Below, piece after piece: positions 12,026 through 22,328 of a stretch of 64,000 nt of DNA. Source of the stretch: Thermanaeromonas sp. C210 (GTDB taxonomy: Bacteria; Bacillota; DSM-521; Neomoorellales; Neomoorellaceae); the NCBI RefSeq assembly GCF_013167955.1, contig NZ_BLWF01000001.1, positions 186,001-250,000 on the forward strand, given 5' to 3'. The translations under genes were made by a program, and so were the position numbers. The notes under the pieces were generated by a model. It saw nothing but the letters and a program-made list of their open reading frames with translations. It was not told the DNA's origin and ran no database searches. The stretch's first letter is position 1. Every line of letters starts with the position of its first letter.

Positions 12026-12514
12026 TTGCCAGAAAAGAAACGGTTATTTTTTATCGGGAACTGTGGTACCGGGAAAACGCATCTGGCCATCGCCCTAGGG
12101 ATGTGTGCTTTGCGCAAAGGCTACAAAGTGCGGTTCTACACTGCTGCCGGGCTGGTCAACGAACTTTTGGAGGCAAGCCAGGAATACCGACTTAAGAAAC
12201 TGGAAAAGCAGTGGCTGGCCCAGGACCTGATCATCCTGGACGAAGTTGGCTACGTACCCTTCACCAAAACCGGCGCAGAACTCTTATGCCAGTTCTGTGC
12301 CAGCCGCTACGAAAGGGGCAGCGTCATCATTACCACCAATCTGGAATTTGCCCAATGGACGGAGGTGTTCGGAGACGAACGGCTGACAGGTGCGCTGCTG
12401 GACCGGCTCACCCACCGGGCGCACATCCTGGTGATGAATGGCCAAAGCTACCGGTTTCGGGAGAGCCTACGCAGGCGCGAGCAAGAGCGCGCAAATTCGC
12501 GCGAGCCCGCATAG
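12026..12514 (+). pseudogene. istB remnant (IS21 helper ATPase, N-terminally truncated)
   Basis: 162 codons encode the AAA+ core of IstB: Walker A GNCGTGKTHLA near residue 11, Walker B LIILDEVGYVP near residue 69, and the 'ERGSVIITTNLEFAQW' sensor region, ending normally. Full IstB is about 250 residues. The N-terminal DNA-binding part is absent, and the sequence just upstream (11960-12025) reads as the tail of istA, so a deletion removed the junction. A shortened ATPase could still be made. Confidence 0.82.
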
Positions 12515-12787
12515 TCTAAGACTAGGCGGGGGTGGTCCCCTTTGCGTTACCACAGCGGTCCCCTTTTCGATTGCCACAAACACCCGGGACTGGCCGCCGC
12601 CGGGTCCGGCGATCTCCGGGTGGTTTTCCTGGGCGATCCCATCTCAGCTGGGGAACTCAAAGGGTGATGGAGGTGTTGGAAAGGCAGGTATTTTTGTGGC
12701 GTTGCAAATGATGCCTTCAAATGGTGGATGTGGTATAATGCTCGATAAAGATGGCCATCATAAATACTAAAAAAGGAAAAGTAAAAT

Positions 12788-12911
12788 TTTTACTCCTCCG
12801 ATAGGTTGTGCCGGAGGGGCAATGTTGAAGGATTGGCGAGTTGAAGAAATTGGCAACAAAATGATAGCTTTAACCGCTCGGTAATATCTGTCCGGGCGGC
12901 AACGTTTCAAG
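12788..12911 (+). repeat. Two degenerate CRISPR-repeat-like hairpins separated by 36 nt
   Basis: Unit 1 (12788-12830) ends GGGGCAATGTTGAAG; unit 2 (12867-12911) begins GCTTTAACCGC and ends GGGCGGCAACGTTTCAAG. The true repeat of the array at 21346 begins GTTGTAACCGC and ends GAGGCGGCAACGTTGAAG. Unit 2 shares TAACCGC and the 12-mer GGCGGCAACGTT with it; unit 1 matches 12 of the last 13 bases. Both enclose a G+C stem, as the repeat does. The 36-nt gap equals the spacer size of the array (35-40). They lie about 450 bp before the cas promoter. Confidence 0.5.
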
Positions 12912-13009
12912 TTCTCTTGCTGGATAGGGATTAACAATTATACCCAGGGAGACAATTATTGAAAAGAGCCTGCCATGGTGTATTTGTTCTGGTAGGCTAC
13001 TTATTTTTT

Positions 13010-13182
13010 ATGCCCTCTATGCCATCGCCGTAGTCGGGGGCATGATGGAGCAGATAGGCGTCCTGGTGGAGAGCACCGCAGCCCTCCATACCGACGTGGT
13101 CAAAAGCGTCACCCGTCCGGGGGGACGCCGTCTATCGGCGGTTGTTAAGCGTAGAAAGCTGGATGATTGCCGTGCGGCGTGA
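13010..13182 (+). pseudogene. Unidentified coding remnant between the repeat-like hairpins
   Basis: One frame reads YALYAIAVVGGMMEQIGVLV and continues to a stop near 13182, without a start codon or ribosome site. The composition is protein-like. I cannot name the family. It probably is the rest of a gene destroyed by rearrangement. The remainder of 12590-13330 holds no intact gene. Confidence 0.3.
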
Positions 13183-13189
13183 CAAGATA

Positions 13190-13235
13190 GCTTTAACTTC
13201 CTAAAATATATCCTTTCGGGCAGCAACTTTTCGAG
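13190..13235 (+). repeat. Third, more diverged CRISPR-repeat-like hairpin
   Basis: It reads GCTTTAACTTCC... and ends CGGGCAGCAACTTTTCGAG, clearly a relative of the unit at 12867-12911. Both are preceded by GATA and followed closely by TCTCTTGCTGGAT, so a longer unit of about 65 bp was duplicated here. It lies about 100 bp before the cas -35 box. Confidence 0.45.
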
Positions 13236-13334
13236 GTCTCTTGCTGGATGTTTAACAGTTGTCCCCAATGGATTCTACTCAATGGAGTAAGTCAAAGAAA
13301 GAGCCCATATTATCTTTAACTCTCCAATAAATAC

Positions 13335-13363
13335 TTGACATACCCCCTGCTTTCTGCTATTTT
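13335..13363 (+). promoter_or_regulatory. Promoter of the cas operon
   Basis: TTGACA (13335-13340) and TATTTT (13358-13363) are 17 nt apart, 39 bp before the first cas start codon. No other promoter is evident between the cas genes, which are separated by 8-15 bp. Confidence 0.75.
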
Positions 13364-13402: not shown

Positions 13403-14713
13403 ATGCAAAGCGTCTCAACCCTTTACGAACGCTTAAAGGCCGACCTCTCCGACCGTGGTACAGCAGCTGGAATCACGGTGTCGCAGAAGTTAAGTCCCTT
13501 TGAGAGCGGTTTTGATGTTCAACCCCCCACATATTCTACTGGTGAGGAGGGACGGGGTGGACGGCAAACACAGACAAGGCATTTTTCTATCCGGAATATT
13601 TCGGGGAAAAGGGCGCTTACAGTTCTCCTGGATTCTATTCCCTCCCAGGCTAACCGCCTCGAGGAAATCATGCGCAACCGCGCTAAAGACCTGGACCTTC
13701 CCGTAGTGGGGGTGCGCGTAGGGGGAACAGGTTACCTCATCACCCAGTATGATGCCCCTCATCGTATCTATGATGGCTATTTTAAATTTTCTAAGCTCAA
13801 CGGGCAGCCTTTTTTTGCCTCTCCCGTAGGGCAGGATATCCTCTGGGCGGATACTTTCTATGCCACCCCCCTTTACCGCTGGTCGCCAAATACGCTCCTT
13901 TTTGGCGGGTGGGCTTCCCACGCGGACGAAGCGGTTATGCAGATTTCAGGTTCGGAAGGGCGTTTCCAGCGCGCCCAGGCCAAACTCGAACGGGCCATGG
14001 AAGCTACCATCATCGGTGTGGTGACATATTTCCAGGATCATGAACTGGACTTGGCGCGTGGCCCCGAAATAATGAAAGCCCTCAAACAACTTTTTACAGT
14101 GGGGCGCACTCAGAGCCGCTATGACCCTCTGAACCCGTCAGCACCCAAGGGGAAAGAGCCGAACAAAGAAAAACTTTCCCAACTCGGCCTCGGACACATT
14201 CTCCCTACTATTGAGGAAGACAGCGGCTACGTAAGCGTAGAGGAAATCTTCTACCAGGCCGTTTTGAAATTTGCCTCCTTACGGAAACTTTATTTTCCGC
14301 CCGGAAGCTCCGGACAAGTTCCCTATGCCCACGAGCGCGATGTTGCAGGACGGGTAGTTCTCGCTTCCCTCGGCCTCTATCTCCTGGCTATTTACTTGTC
14401 CCAGGGTGCCTTGAAGCTTCGTTCCCGCGCAACCCTCATTCCCCGGGACGGGGCTGTCAGGGCAGAGTACCTTACAACTCCCGGGCAGAGGGAGGACTTT
14501 ATGTTGGAGCCGGGAATCATGAAAGAACTTTACGAGCGGGCTAAGGACGACGCGCAGAAACACGGCCTCACTTTTGCCAAGGAGTGCCTCCTGCTCGAAC
14601 TCAACGAAAAAGAACTCATGGAAAAGACGAATTTTGTTTTCAAAGTACCCGTTGCACCCAGCTATATTTATGAGATTTGCCCGCAATTAGCCGGTGGCAC
14701 GCCGCACGAGTAG
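13403..14713 (+). CDS. csb1: Type I-G Cas7 (Csb1, GSU0053 family)
   Basis: A 436-residue protein. It has the Csb1 signature 'LLDSIPSQANRLEE' (about residues 75-88), 'LPVVGVRVG' and 'SPNTLLFGGWASHADE' (about residue 160), typical of the backbone subunit of the type I-G (formerly I-U) effector complex. Cas7 subunits line the crRNA in the interference complex. AAGGAG lies 10 nt before the ATG. It is the first gene of the operon, and its stop lies 11 bp before csb2. Confidence 0.88.
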   Translation: MQSVSTLYERLKADLSDRGTAAGITVSQKLSPFESGFDVQPPTYSTGEEGRGGRQTQTRHFSIRNISGKRALTVLLDSIPSQANRLEEIMRNRAKDLDLPVVGVRVGGTGYLITQYDAPHRIYDGYFKFSKLNGQPFFASPVGQDILWADTFYATPLYRWSPNTLLFGGWASHADEAVMQISGSEGRFQRAQAKLERAMEATIIGVVTYFQDHELDLARGPEIMKALKQLFTVGRTQSRYDPLNPSAPKGKEPNKEKLSQLGLGHILPTIEEDSGYVSVEEIFYQAVLKFASLRKLYFPPGSSGQVPYAHERDVAGRVVLASLGLYLLAIYLSQGALKLRSRATLIPRDGAVRAEYLTTPGQREDFMLEPGIMKELYERAKDDAQKHGLTFAKECLLLELNEKELMEKTNFVFKVPVAPSYIYEICPQLAGGTPHE

Positions 14714-14724
14714 GAGGGATAAAA

Positions 14725-16503
14725 GTGGCCTTTATCCTCAGGGTGGACTACTTGAACCACCTAGTCACGGGTTGCGGAGGTCAAAAGGACAAACTAGAAT
14801 ACCCGCCGCACCCGGACCGCCTCTTCATGGCACTGGTAGCGACGGCGGCCAAAACACGCGTTTACGACGCCGGCGCGAAAGAGTACGTCCCCAAGCTAAA
14901 ATACCCCCTCTACCGCCGCGCCCTGGAGTGGCTTGAAAGTCAGGAACCCCCCGCTATTTACGCGCCGCCGGAACTTTTAGATTCCGGTGTCCTTCACACC
15001 TTTGTTCCGGTGAACTACAAAATCCACAACGCAGGAAATAAAATTGTCCTTCCGCCGTACGACCCGGGGGCGCGGTATCGTGTTCCCCGCCTGCGCCCCA
15101 TCGGCATAATAGACCGGCCCCTCTTTTATGCGTGGCAATCCGACCCGGAAGGGGACATCCGGGAGGCATTGGCCGATCTGGCGAAAGATGTCCCCTACCT
15201 GGGTACGACCTGGAGTTCGGTCGCCGTGCGCGTCGTAGCGGAAATCGAGGAGCCCTACCGGAACGGGCCCTGCCTCAGGCCCCTCAAACAAACCGGCACC
15301 CCTTATGGAGGCCGACTTGCATTGCAGTCACTCCGTGTCCCTGCTCCGGGACGTATCGACGACCTCGACCGGGAGTACCGGCGGGTTATCGCCTTCCTAA
15401 GGAATACTTCAACGAAGCCCTCAGAAGCGCGCGAAATCAGCATGAGGACTTTCATCGGCGCCCCCCAGGTACGCTATATTTGGGACCGGCCCATAAAAGG
15501 AGAAGGACACGTCTTTGCACGGAGTGCGGTGGCCCGCTTTGGCGTGCGTCCTTCAATTCCCCTTATCTGGAGCGGCCTTCTTGCCGAAGCGGTACACGCC
15601 TCTTTAGCCAGTGCCGTAGCCGGCCTGGGGAAGCGTTTTCCAGACACCGATGTCGAGGGGTACGCCACGGGAAATGGGTGTTTTAAAGAGCGGCCCCATA
15701 TATTTTTCGTTCCCCTGTCGAACGTAGGCTTCCAGTATTCCGATGGAACCATCAAGGGCTTTGCTCTGCTCTTCCCGGCAAGCGAAGGGATCAGCCGCGC
15801 GGCCGTGGAGGCCATCTATTACGCCTTCAAAAATTTCCTCGCCCCCCAAAATGAACTCTACCTCGACTTCGGCCGAGTAAAAAATACCACGACCATCTGG
15901 CCGGGAGGCCGGCGTATCTCCCTCTTCGTAGAGCCCCTTGAGGATCAGCCGTACTTTGGATATGTTTTCGGTGATGACGGGCGGAGCTTTCATCCGGAAG
16001 CAAGTGGGGGAGAAGGTTACGGGCGGACGGTGCGCGTGCTCGGGCCAACAACCCTTGAATGGTGGCGCTGGCGGCAGGATTCACAGGTCTGGGCTAGCGT
16101 CACCCCGGTTATTTTGCCGCGTTTTCCCAAGAAAAATCTCTCGGTGCTCCAGATTGTAAACCATCAGTTAGAAATTCTCGGGCTTCCTCCTGCCCGGCGG
16201 GTCACATACCGTTCCCTGGGAGCCCTCAAGGGGACGCCGTCGGTTCACGAGTTTCGCGCCTTCGGCACGCGGTACTTTGAGAACGTCTGGATGCACCTCG
16301 TCCTCGAGTTTGGGGAACCGGTTCGGGGGCCGCTCCTCCTCGGGAGGGGGATGTATTTCGGCTACGGCTTTCTAGCACCCATGCTGCCTGGCGAGGACGA
16401 GAACTTCGGAAGGCATGCGCATTACGCTGCTTCGGAGGAGAATCCGGGACTCGAAGATGTAGGCGCCAAACAGCCATTCCAGAACAGTCAGGGCCTGGTT
16501 TAA
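14725..16503 (+). CDS. csb2: Type I-G Csb2 (Cas5-Cas6 fusion, GSU0054 family)
   Basis: A 592-residue protein whose N-terminus (VAFILRVDYLNHLVTGCGGQ, then 'EYPPHPDRLFMALVATAA') is diagnostic of Csb2. It combines a Cas5-like half, which caps the 5' end of the crRNA, with a Cas6-like half, which cleaves the pre-crRNA in the repeat stem. The glycine-rich 'LLLGRGMYFGYGFL' near residue 537 matches the Cas6-type G-rich loop. The GTG start at 14725 has AGGAGGG upstream; the frame is open further, but only within csb1. Confidence 0.86.
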   Translation: MAFILRVDYLNHLVTGCGGQKDKLEYPPHPDRLFMALVATAAKTRVYDAGAKEYVPKLKYPLYRRALEWLESQEPPAIYAPPELLDSGVLHTFVPVNYKIHNAGNKIVLPPYDPGARYRVPRLRPIGIIDRPLFYAWQSDPEGDIREALADLAKDVPYLGTTWSSVAVRVVAEIEEPYRNGPCLRPLKQTGTPYGGRLALQSLRVPAPGRIDDLDREYRRVIAFLRNTSTKPSEAREISMRTFIGAPQVRYIWDRPIKGEGHVFARSAVARFGVRPSIPLIWSGLLAEAVHASLASAVAGLGKRFPDTDVEGYATGNGCFKERPHIFFVPLSNVGFQYSDGTIKGFALLFPASEGISRAAVEAIYYAFKNFLAPQNELYLDFGRVKNTTTIWPGGRRISLFVEPLEDQPYFGYVFGDDGRSFHPEASGGEGYGRTVRVLGPTTLEWWRWRQDSQVWASVTPVILPRFPKKNLSVLQIVNHQLEILGLPPARRVTYRSLGALKGTPSVHEFRAFGTRYFENVWMHLVLEFGEPVRGPLLLGRGMYFGYGFLAPMLPGEDENFGRHAHYAASEENPGLEDVGAKQPFQNSQGLV

Positions 16504-16517
16504 AAGGAGGGCACAGG

Positions 16518-19500
16518 ATGACCAGAGAGATTCCAGCTGTAGGCGGGCTCGGCCCCGGGGATTTTGAGACCTTTTTCGCCGAAATAATGGCAAGGGTTTC
16601 AGGGGAGAGACATTCTCCCTACCCATGGCAAAAGCGCCTTCTGGCAAGGGTCCTTAAGGAAGGCTGGCCGGAAGCATTGAAGCTGCCCACCGGAACGGGG
16701 AAAACTTCCGTCCTTCTTATCTCCATCTTTCTTCTCGCCCTCGATGCCGGTAAATCGGTGACCGAGAGGAAAACCGGTTTAAGGCTCTTTTATGTCGTAG
16801 ACCGGAGGTTAATTGTCGACCAGGCGGAACGCCTGGCGCTAGAAATGATGAAGGCTATTAACAACGCTGACGAAAACGACGGGAGCATTTTGGGCCGCGT
16901 TAAGGGTGCCCTTCTTACCTACGGCGGAGAAAAACCCTTAGATGTCCTCAAGCTGCGCGGCGGGCTCTACAGCCGCCTGCCGTGGATACGCGAACCGAAC
17001 CAGCCGACAATAGTGCTTACCACAGTCGACCAGATCGGTTCACGGCTCCTTTTTCGCGGCTACGGTACCAGCCCGTTACAGTGGCCGGTCCAGGCGGGAC
17101 TTGCTGCCCTCGATGCTCTCTATTTCCTGGACGAAGTGCACCTCTCCTGGTCCTTTGCCCGGACGCTCCAACGCCTGCGGGAGTTACTTCAACGAGAGCC
17201 CCTTGTTGAGGCCGGCCTTCCCCCTCTTCACCCGGTGATCATGAGCGGGACGCTTCCCGAAACAGGCACGATTGCCCCCGGGAATATCTTCGAGCTTGCA
17301 GAAGAGGATTGGGAAGAAGAGCGACTAAAAAAACGCCTCAATGCGAAACGCTATGTGCGTATTGTGGAGAGGAGGCTGGGCGGGAAGCCGGGTGCGCCGG
17401 TAGCCCCATCAGAGAGCGGCGGGTCCATAGAAACAGAAGAGACTGGGGAAGGGGAAGAAGGAGCCGACCTTACCTTTTTGGCCCGGGGAGAGATGGAGGG
17501 AGAAACCGGTGATGTCCCGGCCCAAAGGGCTTCTGTTCCTGTCAGCGACGGGCAAGACCTCGAGGCGGTTAAAGAGATTGCCGAAGCACTGGCCGAAGAA
17601 GCGCGTGAACTTTTGCGACAGGTTGAGGGGCCCATTGCCGTCATTGCCAACCGCGTGGCTACGGCAAGGCTCGTCTTTGATAAGCTCAGACGGCACCTCC
17701 GGTCTACCGGCGAAAATGACCTCGTCGGGGTAACGGCAGGGGTGGAAACACCCGGTGGGGAAGAGCAGGCCAGGGTTTTGGAGGATGAAGATATCACGAG
17801 TAGCGACATCCTGCTTTTGACGGGTCGGGTGCGACCCTTTGACCGCGAACGGCTCAACAAACGGCTTTTAGACGGCAATAGACCTTTTCCTCGGGTTGTC
17901 GTGGCGACCCAGACCATTGAGGTAGGGTTTGATTTTTCCTTCGCAGCCATGGTGACGGAAGTGGCGCCCTGCGACGCCCTTATTCAGCGGCTTGGCCGTT
18001 TAAACCGCGACGGAAAATTTGACGGAGACAACTTTCCTCGCTGCATTGTGGTGGTGCCGAAGGGCAAGAGCTATCGGCCTTATCCCTACGGGGAAGAAGA
18101 AATTGAAAAATGCGTGCAGGTCCTGGAAAGTCTTCCGTCTACCGAAGACATCGCTGAGGAGGGGACAGGGGCGCAAGGACCGAAACAGCGAAGGAAGAAA
18201 AATGCAAACAAAACCCGGGACAAATGGCATGACGTCTCTCACCGGGTGTTGCGTGCCATGGAACCGGAGTTGCCTTTGCCAGAGCCGGGGGATACACCGC
18301 CCCTGACCCATGTGGAGATCGAACGCCTTGCCCAGACAAGCTTCGCCGGGGTAGAACCCGACATTTCTCCCTACCTCCACGGGTACGAAAGCCGCCCTCT
18401 GGATGTCTACATAGTCTGGCGCGAAGACTTGCATGAGGCTGACCTCGCCGATGCGTCGCCGGACAACCTGCGCCGGCTCAAGGATTATTTCTCATTCATG
18501 CCGCCTATGGCCTACGAGATGCTACCTTTGCCTTTTTACACGGCATTAAAATGGCTCCGGCGGGAATGGGCCGACGCCGGTGATGTAGAAGGCGGTGCTT
18601 CGACGGATACGCCCCGGATTTCGGGCTTGCGTCCGGCGTACCTCTGGCGTCCCGGCGCCGAAGATTTAAACGTCCTCCTTTCCCAAAGAGAAGCACAGGC
18701 CTTATCCGGGAGACCTGAATCTTTCCTTCTTAAACCCGGCGATGTTGTCGTCGTACCTGCCTCTTATGGTGGGGTTGACGCTTTTGGTTGGCGCCCTCCC
18801 CGTTCCCTGCGGGGCAAAGGAGGGGGAGAAGCGCTTTCCAGGTACACCGCTGTGTATGCAGCAGGCATCCGCCAAGGACTGGAGTACGTTCCCAGGACAA
18901 TTTACCTTCCCCTTACGCCGCGCCACATCGAGCGCTATGTAACGGACGAAGAGACCAAGCGCGCCCTCGTCTACGAACTGCGGGAACTTGTGGGCTCCCT
19001 GGAACATCTTTCACCCGACGAATTGAAGAAGATACGCATTAAGGACGTAGGGGCTGTTGACGGGCAAGAGGAGGACCCCAAAACTGCCGGCCAGCCTCCC
19101 GGCGTCTCCGGGGAGACAACCGGGGCGGGGGCGCTTGCCCGGCGCCTTGCCGCGTTCTTAGAGACTCTTACCCGGGAAGAGGGTGCCGTTCCAGAGTTCA
19201 GGGAACTAGCCGGTTTTCTCAGGAAGAGATCTGGTGGCGTGGCCCTGCATCCTTTTCTCGATGCTGGCGTCGACGAAGAGGAAGTTCCGCGCGGTATCCT
19301 TTTTGCCGTTTATGCGGAAGATTATCATCCTGATTCCCCGGGATACGAAAGCGAAAGCTTCGACGAGACGGATGAAGAAGCGGGGGTGGTACGGGAGGTG
19401 GAGCTGGAAAAGCACCTCGGGGACGTAGAAAAACTGGTGACCCGCTACGTCGAGGATCTGAAGATAGACATGCTCAAAGGATGGGGTGCGCTTCTTACCC

Positions 19501-20099
19501 GGGCGCTGCCCCTTGCAGCCCGCTACCACGACCTGGGGAAATTAGACCCGCGCCTGCAAAAGATACTTTACGGGGAAGTGGGAATAAGCGCCACAGCAGT
19601 CCCTCTGGCAAAATCCGGGAAAGTTACGCGCAACTACAGGGAACGGGAAAGATTCTATCGTAAAGTGGACTATCCCTTCGGCAAGCGCCACGAGTACACG
19701 TCTGTTGTCCTCCTCACATCCCCTGCTTCCATTACGGCTCTTGCCCGGGAAACTAATGAAGTTCGGGAGCTTGTCTTATACCTTATCGGCACGCACCATG
19801 GCCACGGCCGTCCTTTCTTTCCACCCCTCCGCTGGCGTCCGGATGAGCCCTGGCAACCTGTGGATGCCCGGCTCTTTGATTCTGAAGTTATAAGCTTCGG
19901 GCCTGAATTTTTTGCCGGCCTGGCCGAAGCAACTTCCCTCAAGTCTGCGTGGCCGGAACGCTTTTTTGAGCACCTTGAGCGTTACGGCTGTTACGGCCTG
20001 GCCTACCTGGAAGCCCTTTTGCGCCTGGCTGACTGGCAGGCATCCAGGAAGGATGGAACCCCTAAACAAAAGCCGAGAGTCAGGAAACGTGAATTTTAA
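16518..20099 (+). CDS. cas3: Type I-G Cas3 helicase with a C-terminal HD nuclease
   Basis: A 1193-residue protein. It has Walker A LPTGTGKTS (about residue 56), a DEVH box LDEVHLSW (about 204), motif VI QRLGRLNRDGK (about 490) and, at the C-terminus, the HD nuclease (YHDLGKLD near 1002, GTHHGHG near 1095). The HD domain at the C-terminus, not the N-terminus, is characteristic of type I-G Cas3. It unwinds and degrades DNA recruited by the effector complex. The acidic low-complexity stretch at about 290-345 is probably a linker. The catalytic motifs appear intact. Confidence 0.92.
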   Translation: MTREIPAVGGLGPGDFETFFAEIMARVSGERHSPYPWQKRLLARVLKEGWPEALKLPTGTGKTSVLLISIFLLALDAGKSVTERKTGLRLFYVVDRRLIVDQAERLALEMMKAINNADENDGSILGRVKGALLTYGGEKPLDVLKLRGGLYSRLPWIREPNQPTIVLTTVDQIGSRLLFRGYGTSPLQWPVQAGLAALDALYFLDEVHLSWSFARTLQRLRELLQREPLVEAGLPPLHPVIMSGTLPETGTIAPGNIFELAEEDWEEERLKKRLNAKRYVRIVERRLGGKPGAPVAPSESGGSIETEETGEGEEGADLTFLARGEMEGETGDVPAQRASVPVSDGQDLEAVKEIAEALAEEARELLRQVEGPIAVIANRVATARLVFDKLRRHLRSTGENDLVGVTAGVETPGGEEQARVLEDEDITSSDILLLTGRVRPFDRERLNKRLLDGNRPFPRVVVATQTIEVGFDFSFAAMVTEVAPCDALIQRLGRLNRDGKFDGDNFPRCIVVVPKGKSYRPYPYGEEEIEKCVQVLESLPSTEDIAEEGTGAQGPKQRRKKNANKTRDKWHDVSHRVLRAMEPELPLPEPGDTPPLTHVEIERLAQTSFAGVEPDISPYLHGYESRPLDVYIVWREDLHEADLADASPDNLRRLKDYFSFMPPMAYEMLPLPFYTALKWLRREWADAGDVEGGASTDTPRISGLRPAYLWRPGAEDLNVLLSQREAQALSGRPESFLLKPGDVVVVPASYGGVDAFGWRPPRSLRGKGGGEALSRYTAVYAAGIRQGLEYVPRTIYLPLTPRHIERYVTDEETKRALVYELRELVGSLEHLSPDELKKIRIKDVGAVDGQEEDPKTAGQPPGVSGETTGAGALARRLAAFLETLTREEGAVPEFRELAGFLRKRSGGVALHPFLDAGVDEEEVPRGILFAVYAEDYHPDSPGYESESFDETDEEAGVVREVELEKHLGDVEKLVTRYVEDLKIDMLKGWGALLTRALPLAARYHDLGKLDPRLQKILYGEVGISATAVPLAKSGKVTRNYRERERFYRKVDYPFGKRHEYTSVVLLTSPASITALARETNEVRELVLYLIGTHHGHGRPFFPPLRWRPDEPWQPVDARLFDSEVISFGPEFFAGLAEATSLKSAWPERFFEHLERYGCYGLAYLEALLRLADWQASRKDGTPKQKPRVRKREF

Positions 20100-21345: not shown

Positions 21346-22328
21346 GTTGTAACCGCCTCTAAAGAGGCGGCAACGTTGAAGGAATGCCGGCCGCCACTTT
21401 CCAAACGCCCTTTACCCCGTTGTAACCGCCTCTAAAGAGGCGGCAACGTTGAAGGGTGGTTTGAGGAAGTGGCGCCCACAGGGAGCCCGGAACCGTTGTA
21501 ACCGCCTCTAAAGAGGCGGCAACGTTGAAGCCACATCACCTACAGCCGCCGTATCTGCGGTGTTACGTTGTAACCGCCTCTAAAGAGGCGGCAACGTTGA
21601 AGCCACATCACCTACAGCCGCCGTATCTGCGGTGTTACGTTGTAACCGCCTCTAAAGAGGCGGCAACGTTGAAGCATGTTCGATGCCGATTGTTACTTTA
21701 TTCGGATTTGTGCCGTTGTAACCGCCTCTAAAGAGGCGGCAACGTTGAAGCCCGAACATAAATGTTTTTGGTCGGCATTTTTTTATGTTGTAACCGCCTC
21801 TAAAGAGGCGGCAACGTTGAAGCCAAGGAGAGTGTATCAAAAATGGCTAAAGCAAGCAGTTGTAACCGCCTCTAAAGAGGCGGCAACGTTGAAGCTCTAC
21901 AAAAAAGCCGACCAGAGGGCCGAGAGAACGGTTGTAACCGCCTCTAAAGAGGCGGCAACGTTGAAGCTATTGAAGCCGTCACCAAAGCGGGCCTCATGAG
22001 CGGGTTGTAACCGCCTCTAAAGAGGCGGCAACGTTGAAGCACCTCATTGCAGAAGTTTTCAAGAGCCTCGATACGTTGTAACCGCCTCTAAAGAGGCGGC
22101 AACGTTGAAGCTTCAAGGATGCGGCTTTCATTTGAAGGCCTGGTATGTTGTAACCGCCTCTAAAGAGGCGGCAACGTTGAAGCGTCTCCCTGGCCGATGA
22201 TGAGTATGCTGCTTTGCTTGTTGTAACCGCCTCTAAAGAGGCGGCAACGTTGAAGCTTGTATAATCAACCTAGAGGTGAGAACATGAAGAATGTTGTAAC
22301 CGCCTCTAAAGAGGCGGCAACGTTGAAG
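21346..22328 (+). CRISPR. CRISPR array, 14 identical 36-bp repeats, 13 spacers
   Basis: The repeat begins GTTGTAACCGCCTC, has the loop TAAA and ends GAGGCGGCAACGTTGAAG; its core CCGCCTC/GAGGCGG is a perfect 7-bp stem. Repeat starts: 21346, 21419, 21495, 21567, 21639, 21715, 21787, 21859, 21931, 22004, 22075, 22147, 22220 and 22293. Spacers are 35-40 nt. Spacers 3 and 4 are identical (21531-21566 and 21603-21638), so 12 are unique. Eleven of 13 spacers begin with C; the two nearest the presumed leader begin with G. All repeats appear identical, including the last, so the array is not visibly decaying. Confidence 0.98.

Follow-up and report, generated by a model that had tools for sequence, protein, structure and literature searches.

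Type I-G is the least understood of the type I CRISPR-Cas subtypes, and its effector does not use a Cas5 subunit to hold the 5' handle. Type I effectors in general flip out guide bases 6 and 12 and leave them unpaired. A class of RNAs known as CreR reportedly regulates cas genes, as described by Shu et al. under the title 'Widespread RNA-based cas regulation monitors crRNA abundance and anti-CRISPR proteins'.

The CreR types named in a 2026 review are I-B, I-E and V-A (PMC13131331). Three further kinds of guide RNA are relevant here. The CreA RNAs of CreTA modules, known from type I-B systems of haloarchaea (PMC8501985, PMC9458426) and type I-F systems of Acinetobacter (PMC10097628), are built from degenerate repeats in a psi-R1, psi-S, psi-R2 layout and target the promoter of a toxin gene. 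Pairing of the haloarchaeal type I-B CreA involves positions 1-5 and 7-11 beside a TTC PAM (PMC8501985). In Francisella, scaRNA is a degenerate repeat RNA that redirects Cas9 and represses chromosomal transcription (PMC9458426). Lastly, ordinary type I-G crRNAs have been studied in Thioalkalivibrio sulfidiphilus, where Csb2 cuts 4 nt below the hairpin, the handle is 8 nt long and the PAM is TTN (PMC9638904).

The locus considered here lies in a 64-kb stretch of DNA, hereafter the window, from the 2.68-Mb genome of Thermanaeromonas sp. C210. Like CreR, it has a mini-CRISPR array beside a cas operon, a guide partly complementary to the cas promoter, a PAM and no toxin; it differs in its type I-G effector (with the Cas5-Cas6 fusion Csb2 and a short Cas8g) and in the longer loops of its hairpins. 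Those CreR hallmarks that can be read from sequence are all found, namely degenerate cognate repeats, a PAM-flanked guide against the cas promoter, and effector-type pairing with co-variation. The layout and the degenerate repeats are shared with CreTA, but the guide in the window targets the cas promoter and no creT is supported, and because of this target the locus does not belong to CreTA. It shares the TTN PAM, the expected cut 4 nt below the hairpin and the 8-nt handle with ordinary I-G crRNAs. However, these lie inside an array and carry fully matched spacers that lead to destruction, whereas the repeats of the mini-array are degenerate and its guide matches only over the first ~16 nt. 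The scaRNA system differs in its type (II), its effector (Cas9) and its target genes.

We regard the mini-array as almost certainly functional and propose, with a probability of about 0.86, that psi-R1, psi-S and psi-R2 encode a CreR-type guide RNA that would autoregulate the adjacent type I-G cas genes. The predicted guide RNA fits the promoter of its own cas genes, so the immune system probably turns itself down; three bacterial lineages that are unrelated to one another share this arrangement. An earlier, sequence-only reading of this DNA had raised the same idea and held that no type I-G case was known to have been reported. Indeed, none was found in the literature searched, with the primary CreR paper and its supplement outside that search, and an earlier in silico mention is possible.

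The type I-G locus and its mini-array

The window carries a type I-G CRISPR-Cas locus comprising csb1, csb2, cas3g, cas8g and an array (Table 1). A csx17 model, run without a positive control, had no match in the genome. The locus lacks cas1, and two cas1 genes sit on other contigs. Within the main array, two successive repeat-spacer units at 21494-21637 are identical (72 nt, 100%), representing a duplicated spacer. Upstream of csb1, ~820 bp of non-coding DNA separates the cas operon from an IS21-type element (11141 to ~12580; an istA fragment and istB), the right end of which abuts the mini-array region. A search of the whole window against Rfam returned one tRNA and nothing else.

Table 1. 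Coordinates of the mini-array, its predicted target and the surrounding type I-G features, numbered from the first letter of the window.
Feature	Position	Strand	Remarks
Extended -10 element TGG-TATAAT of the predicted guide RNA	12731-12739	+	Predicted start ~12746; from sequence, kept in Moorella
psi-R1, degenerate I-G repeat	12788-12831	+	Stem 12793-12800/12812-12819, CAAT, 8-nt handle GTTGAAGG at 12824-12831
psi-S, spacer-like guide ATTGGCGAGTTGAAGAAATTGGCAACAAAATGATA	12832-12866	+	Positions 1-5, 7-11 and 13-16 pair with the cas promoter
psi-R2, degenerate I-G repeat	12867-12911	+	Stem 12874-12881/12892-12899, CAAC, handle decayed (GTTTCAAG)
Intrinsic terminator of the predicted guide transcript, AGCCTGCCA..TGGTAGGCT and T-tract	12966-13009	+	Fold z -3.6
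ABC-2-type permease gene remnant	13012-13144	+	An intact Moorella gene is 79% identical over 136 nt; plays no role in the mechanism
R3, decayed duplicate of psi-R2	13191-13235	+	No hairpin
Predicted target (protospacer) of psi-S	13293-13328	-	14 of the 16 bases 13328-13313 match; guide positions 6 and 12 do not
PAM TTT (I-G PAM is TTN, PMC9638904)	13329-13331	-	3 bp from the -35 TTGACA (13335-13340)
cas promoter TTGACA-17-TATTTT	13335-13363	+	Homologous promoter upstream of csb1 in Moorella
csb1 / Cas7g	13403-14713	+	Start of the cas operon
csb2 / Cas5-6g	14677-16503	+	Expected processing nuclease
cas3g	16518-20099	+	
Short Cas8g-like large subunit, 348 aa	20108-21154	+	PADLOC Cas8g E 7e-23; NCBIfam NF049934
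Main CRISPR array, 14 repeats GTTGTAACCGCCTCTAAAGAGGCGGCAACGTTGAAGC	21346-22328	+	

The mini-array consists of two degenerate I-G repeats, 35-36 nt apart, which form 8-bp hairpins and enclose the 35-nt spacer-like sequence. These ectopic repeats lie 8.5 kb from the main array and have low sequence identity to it, with the structure kept (8-bp stem, 4 nt, handle). The stem arms are CTCCTCCG/CGGAGGGG in psi-R1 and CCGCTCGG/CCGGGCGG in psi-R2, and their loops measure 10-11 nt as against 2 nt in the main array; psi-R2 folds with -14.6 kcal/mol (z -3.3). The psi-R1 handle GTTGAAGG is that of the first two array repeats, and the 3' part of psi-R1 is kept as GGGGCAATGTTGAAGG where the main array has GGCGGCAACGTTGAAGG/C. 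In 20 kb, psi-R1 is the sole non-array site that combines at least 10/12 tag matches on the cas strand with a perfect adjoining 8-bp stem.

The sequence-only reading had described two hairpins ~36 nt apart, a third further on, and a 5' TAACCGC and 3' part shared with the repeat. The pair of hairpins is borne out. The shared motifs apply in full to psi-R2, which keeps TAACCGC and GGCGGCAACGTT..AAG, while psi-R1 keeps the 3' part only. The third element is not a hairpin: R3, at a distance of 324 nt, is a diverged copy of psi-R2 and the 3' flank of psi-R2, with 83% identity across 42 nt. It does not fold (-2.1 kcal/mol, z +0.6), and it is probably a non-functional relic. The same relic also precedes csb1 in Moorella. 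For the guide-like sequences that follow psi-R2 and R3, there is no significant PAM-flanked target in the 64 kb (best 11-12/15, none near a local promoter).

The mini-array is bracketed by a promoter-like extended -10 element upstream and a terminator hairpin downstream, both of which are kept in Moorella (-10 element, GAATGTGGTACAAT against GATGTGGTATAAT; terminator counterpart, fold z -8.6). The promoter has no good -35, and a consensus promoter scan did not flag it because the scan requires one. Similarly, the terminator has too long a loop for the consensus scan, which missed it. The minimum-energy structure of the full transcript (12746-13008) does not resolve neatly into two separate hairpins; these appear with the repeats folded alone, and psi-R2 and the terminator also appear in the centroid of the long transcript.

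The guide matches the promoter of its own cas genes

Because the published I-G register was applied to psi-R1, the start of the guide is fixed at 12832, with no free choice. Read from this position, the guide is ATTGGCGAGTTGAAGA. It finds its partner on the minus strand at 13328-13313, in the cas promoter (ATTGGAGAGTTAAAGA), with a match at 14 of 15 scored positions, the score ignoring positions 6, 12 and 18. The alignment reads ATTGG-C-GAGTT-G-AAGA in the guide and ATTGG-A-GAGTT-A-AAGA in the target. The mismatches at positions 6 and 12 are not independent proof of effector-type pairing because the score ignores these positions; the compensatory changes described below are independent.

The cas promoter site is the best non-self hit in the 64 kb, with 14/15 against 12/15 for the runner-up. 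It is also the single exact match, in the 2.68-Mb genome, to the PAM-flanked pattern TTNATTGGNGAGTTNAA. A score of 14 against the cas promoter was reached by none of 294,229 random 18-mers from the window and by none of 200,000 shuffled guides. The check put forward in the sequence-only reading, a short seed beside a I-G PAM at the cas promoter, thus returned a PAM-flanked match (14/15, TTT).

The counterpart in Moorella

Moorella thermoacetica DSM 21394 is the only searched relative with a close system. Its Csb1 is 89% identical, and a Csb1 search of genome contigs found this strain alone, with no match among viral contigs. The hairpin of psi-R2 is conserved in Moorella, one pair being kept as G-U. 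The best hit of the Moorella guide, ATTAGCGAGTTAAAGA, in 16 kb is ATTAGTGAATTAAAGA, which lies beside TTT at a promoter. Compared with the window, position 4 has changed from G to A in both guide and target.

The Moorella target lies 3 nt from the -35 of a TTGACA-17-TATTTT promoter, ~535 bp upstream of csb1. Between this promoter and csb1 there are a truncated permease ORF (67 codons, membrane) and an R3 relic, and no terminator was found. Since csb1 keeps a second promoter without a guide target, the transcript regulated in Moorella may be cas, by read-through, or only the relic ORF. Further single ectopic repeats, one of them nearly intact, lie upstream of the Moorella mini-array (12450-13010 of locus L005, minus strand). 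These repeats lie ~885-1400 bp upstream of csb1, and no local target exists for the sequences that follow them.

Guide and target pairs in other type I-G loci

The collection of Csb2 homologues covered 398 genomes (the phylum, two of its classes, plasmids), and the loci of these homologues were fetched. Guide candidates defined by handle and stem were then scanned, without bias, against TTN-flanked sites in the cas promoters of ~50 other I-G loci. Scores of 13-14/15 are confined to the window, L034, L036 and the Thermus loci L052, L075 and L077, while every other guide candidate at any locus, real array spacers included, scores at most 10/15 in promoters. Among 22 csb1-first loci, such scores occur in 6/461 promoter tests versus 1/15,121 elsewhere, the single exception being the promoter site of Moorella.

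L034 and L036 belong to two sister species of one genus of Bacillota, both of which carry a guide and cas-promoter pair. Their mini-arrays have the opposite orientation and lie ~870 bp upstream of csb1; a second hairpin follows after ~36 nt, and the targets cover the probable -35 of the csb1 promoter. Between the two species there are six compensatory changes (positions 1, 11, 14, 15, 16 and 17), with pairing kept at each. In the Thermus thermophilus plasmids (L052, L075, L077), one degenerate repeat is followed by a guide and then by a GC-rich terminator. Strains with the plasmid I-G locus include SG0.5JP17-16 and JL-18. In the Thermus plasmids, 2 bp separate the PAM from the -35, and the csb1 promoter is targeted directly, as it is in L034 and L036. 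A second Thermus haplotype (HB5018, TF27; L076, L078, L107-L109) has a handle lengthened by a 4-nt insertion, a T-to-C change that guide and target share at position 11, and an 18-bp deletion that includes the -35 and the PAM-side match.

When the five distinct guide/target pairs are taken together, 66/70 bases match within positions 1-16 if 6 and 12 are set apart, and 1/10 match at 6 and 12 (Fisher p 3e-8, under the assumption of independent positions and with guides preselected by the 15-position score). No pair was found in the Rhodothermus, Azotobacter, Methylomagnum and Streptomyces plasmid loci or in most of the Bacillota loci surveyed, and the pair is therefore not universal in type I-G. 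The expectation of the sequence-only reading that a functional element would be conserved in relatives is nevertheless supported, as Moorella, two further Bacillota and Thermus all retain the mini-array and its pairing.

Proposed mechanism

The guide transcript would start at ~12746 and end at the terminator near 13005. Csb2 may recognise both degenerate hairpins and cut 4 nt below each, with the cut in psi-R2 expected after 12903, to give a crRNA-like RNA of ~80 nt (12824-12903) with the handle GTTGAAGG. This processing step is suggested by published I-G biochemistry together with the kept sequence features. Cascade loaded with this RNA would bind the cas promoter through 14 bp within the first 16 positions, beside the TTT PAM, while the bases at positions 6 and 12 would be flipped out and stay unpaired; the pairing is sequence-based, whereas the binding is what we infer from it. 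Because pairing ends after ~16 nt, Cas3 is probably not activated. Positioned 3 bp from the -35, Cascade would block RNA polymerase. In this way csb1-csb2-cas3-cas8g would come under negative feedback, which ordinary crRNAs or anti-CRISPRs would lift by drawing Cascade away.

Alternative explanations

The locus could instead be an addiction module like CreTA or CrePA, in which the guide mainly silences a toxic gene or RNA between the mini-array and csb1 and the match to cas is secondary. We regard this as unlikely. It draws on Moorella, where the guide targets a promoter just before the 67-codon membrane ORF, the position where creT would sit. However, this ORF, considered as a toxin, is an N-terminal piece of a permease with intact Moorella homologues, and hence a decayed gene. 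The window no longer has the Moorella-type ORF promoter, and its target is fused to the promoter of csb1 itself. A tiny hydrophobic ORF at 12959-13033 (24 codons, TTG start, ribosome-site-like GGGAG) was likewise rejected as a toxin, as it overlaps the terminator and is absent from Moorella. The direct targeting of the csb1 promoter by the Thermus and L034/L036 guides also argues against such a module, and no toxin gene is supported in the window.

The permease fragments have a history of their own. The window (12587-12648, 13012-13144) and Moorella (L005, 11700-12044) hold different surviving pieces of one ABC-2-type permease gene, and therefore an ancestral insert has decayed differently in the two lineages. 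An intact permease copy lies near the Moorella cas locus, and a related gene occurs elsewhere in the Thermanaeromonas sp. C210 genome.

The main alternative in the sequence-only reading was that the mini-array is what remains of an old CRISPR array and no longer functions. This suits only the third element, R3, which no longer folds. The degenerate repeats could be read in the same way, and the permease fragments and the IS21-type element nearby point to decay and rearrangement. For psi-R1 and psi-R2, this explanation is improbable. The stretch from psi-R1 to the terminator is as conserved between the window and Moorella as the csb1 coding DNA (88.9% versus 87.6% identity), while the flanking DNA does not align. 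Moreover, the two hairpins have been retained along with the terminator, there is co-variation between guide and target, and the design recurs in other lineages.

It is more improbable still that the guide RNA brings Cascade to the promoter to activate or fine-tune transcription instead of repressing it. In the window, Moorella and Thermus, the site is found on the upstream side of the -35, a place where an activator could bind, but in L034 and L036 the target covers the probable -35 itself, and to our knowledge all published cases of CreA and CreR are repressors. Finally, a chance match or a decaying, accidentally self-targeting spacer, in keeping with a match confined to the first ~16 nt, can practically be set aside given the significance, the PAM, the flipped-base register and the compensatory changes in several lineages, and given that there is no near-full-length 36-nt match, which recent acquisition would show. 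The reading as a CreR-like guide RNA that represses its own cas promoter is thus supported by the PAM-flanked seed match and by its conservation.

Implications for type I-G systems

A broader scenario is tentative, and we think it rather less probable than its negation. In this scenario, csb1-first I-G systems would have evolved cas-autoregulating guide RNAs several times, and orientation and promoter geometry would differ between these cases. Within Moorellaceae, one guide/target cassette would be common to the cas promoter and to that of an inserted cargo gene, so that an autoregulator and a CreTA-like cargo-silencing module could interconvert by the movement of one promoter.

A simple recognition rule, comprising an 8-nt handle, a TTN PAM and pairing at positions 1-5, 7-11 and 13-16, picks out cases almost without background, and the Thermus thermophilus plasmids offer a testable natural system. 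If the proposed autoregulation is true, cas expression should rise in response to anti-CRISPRs against type I-G or to loss of the array. RNA-guided autorepression of cas genes would then extend to type I-G, and CreR would be a general feature of type I effectors and not one confined to a few subtypes.
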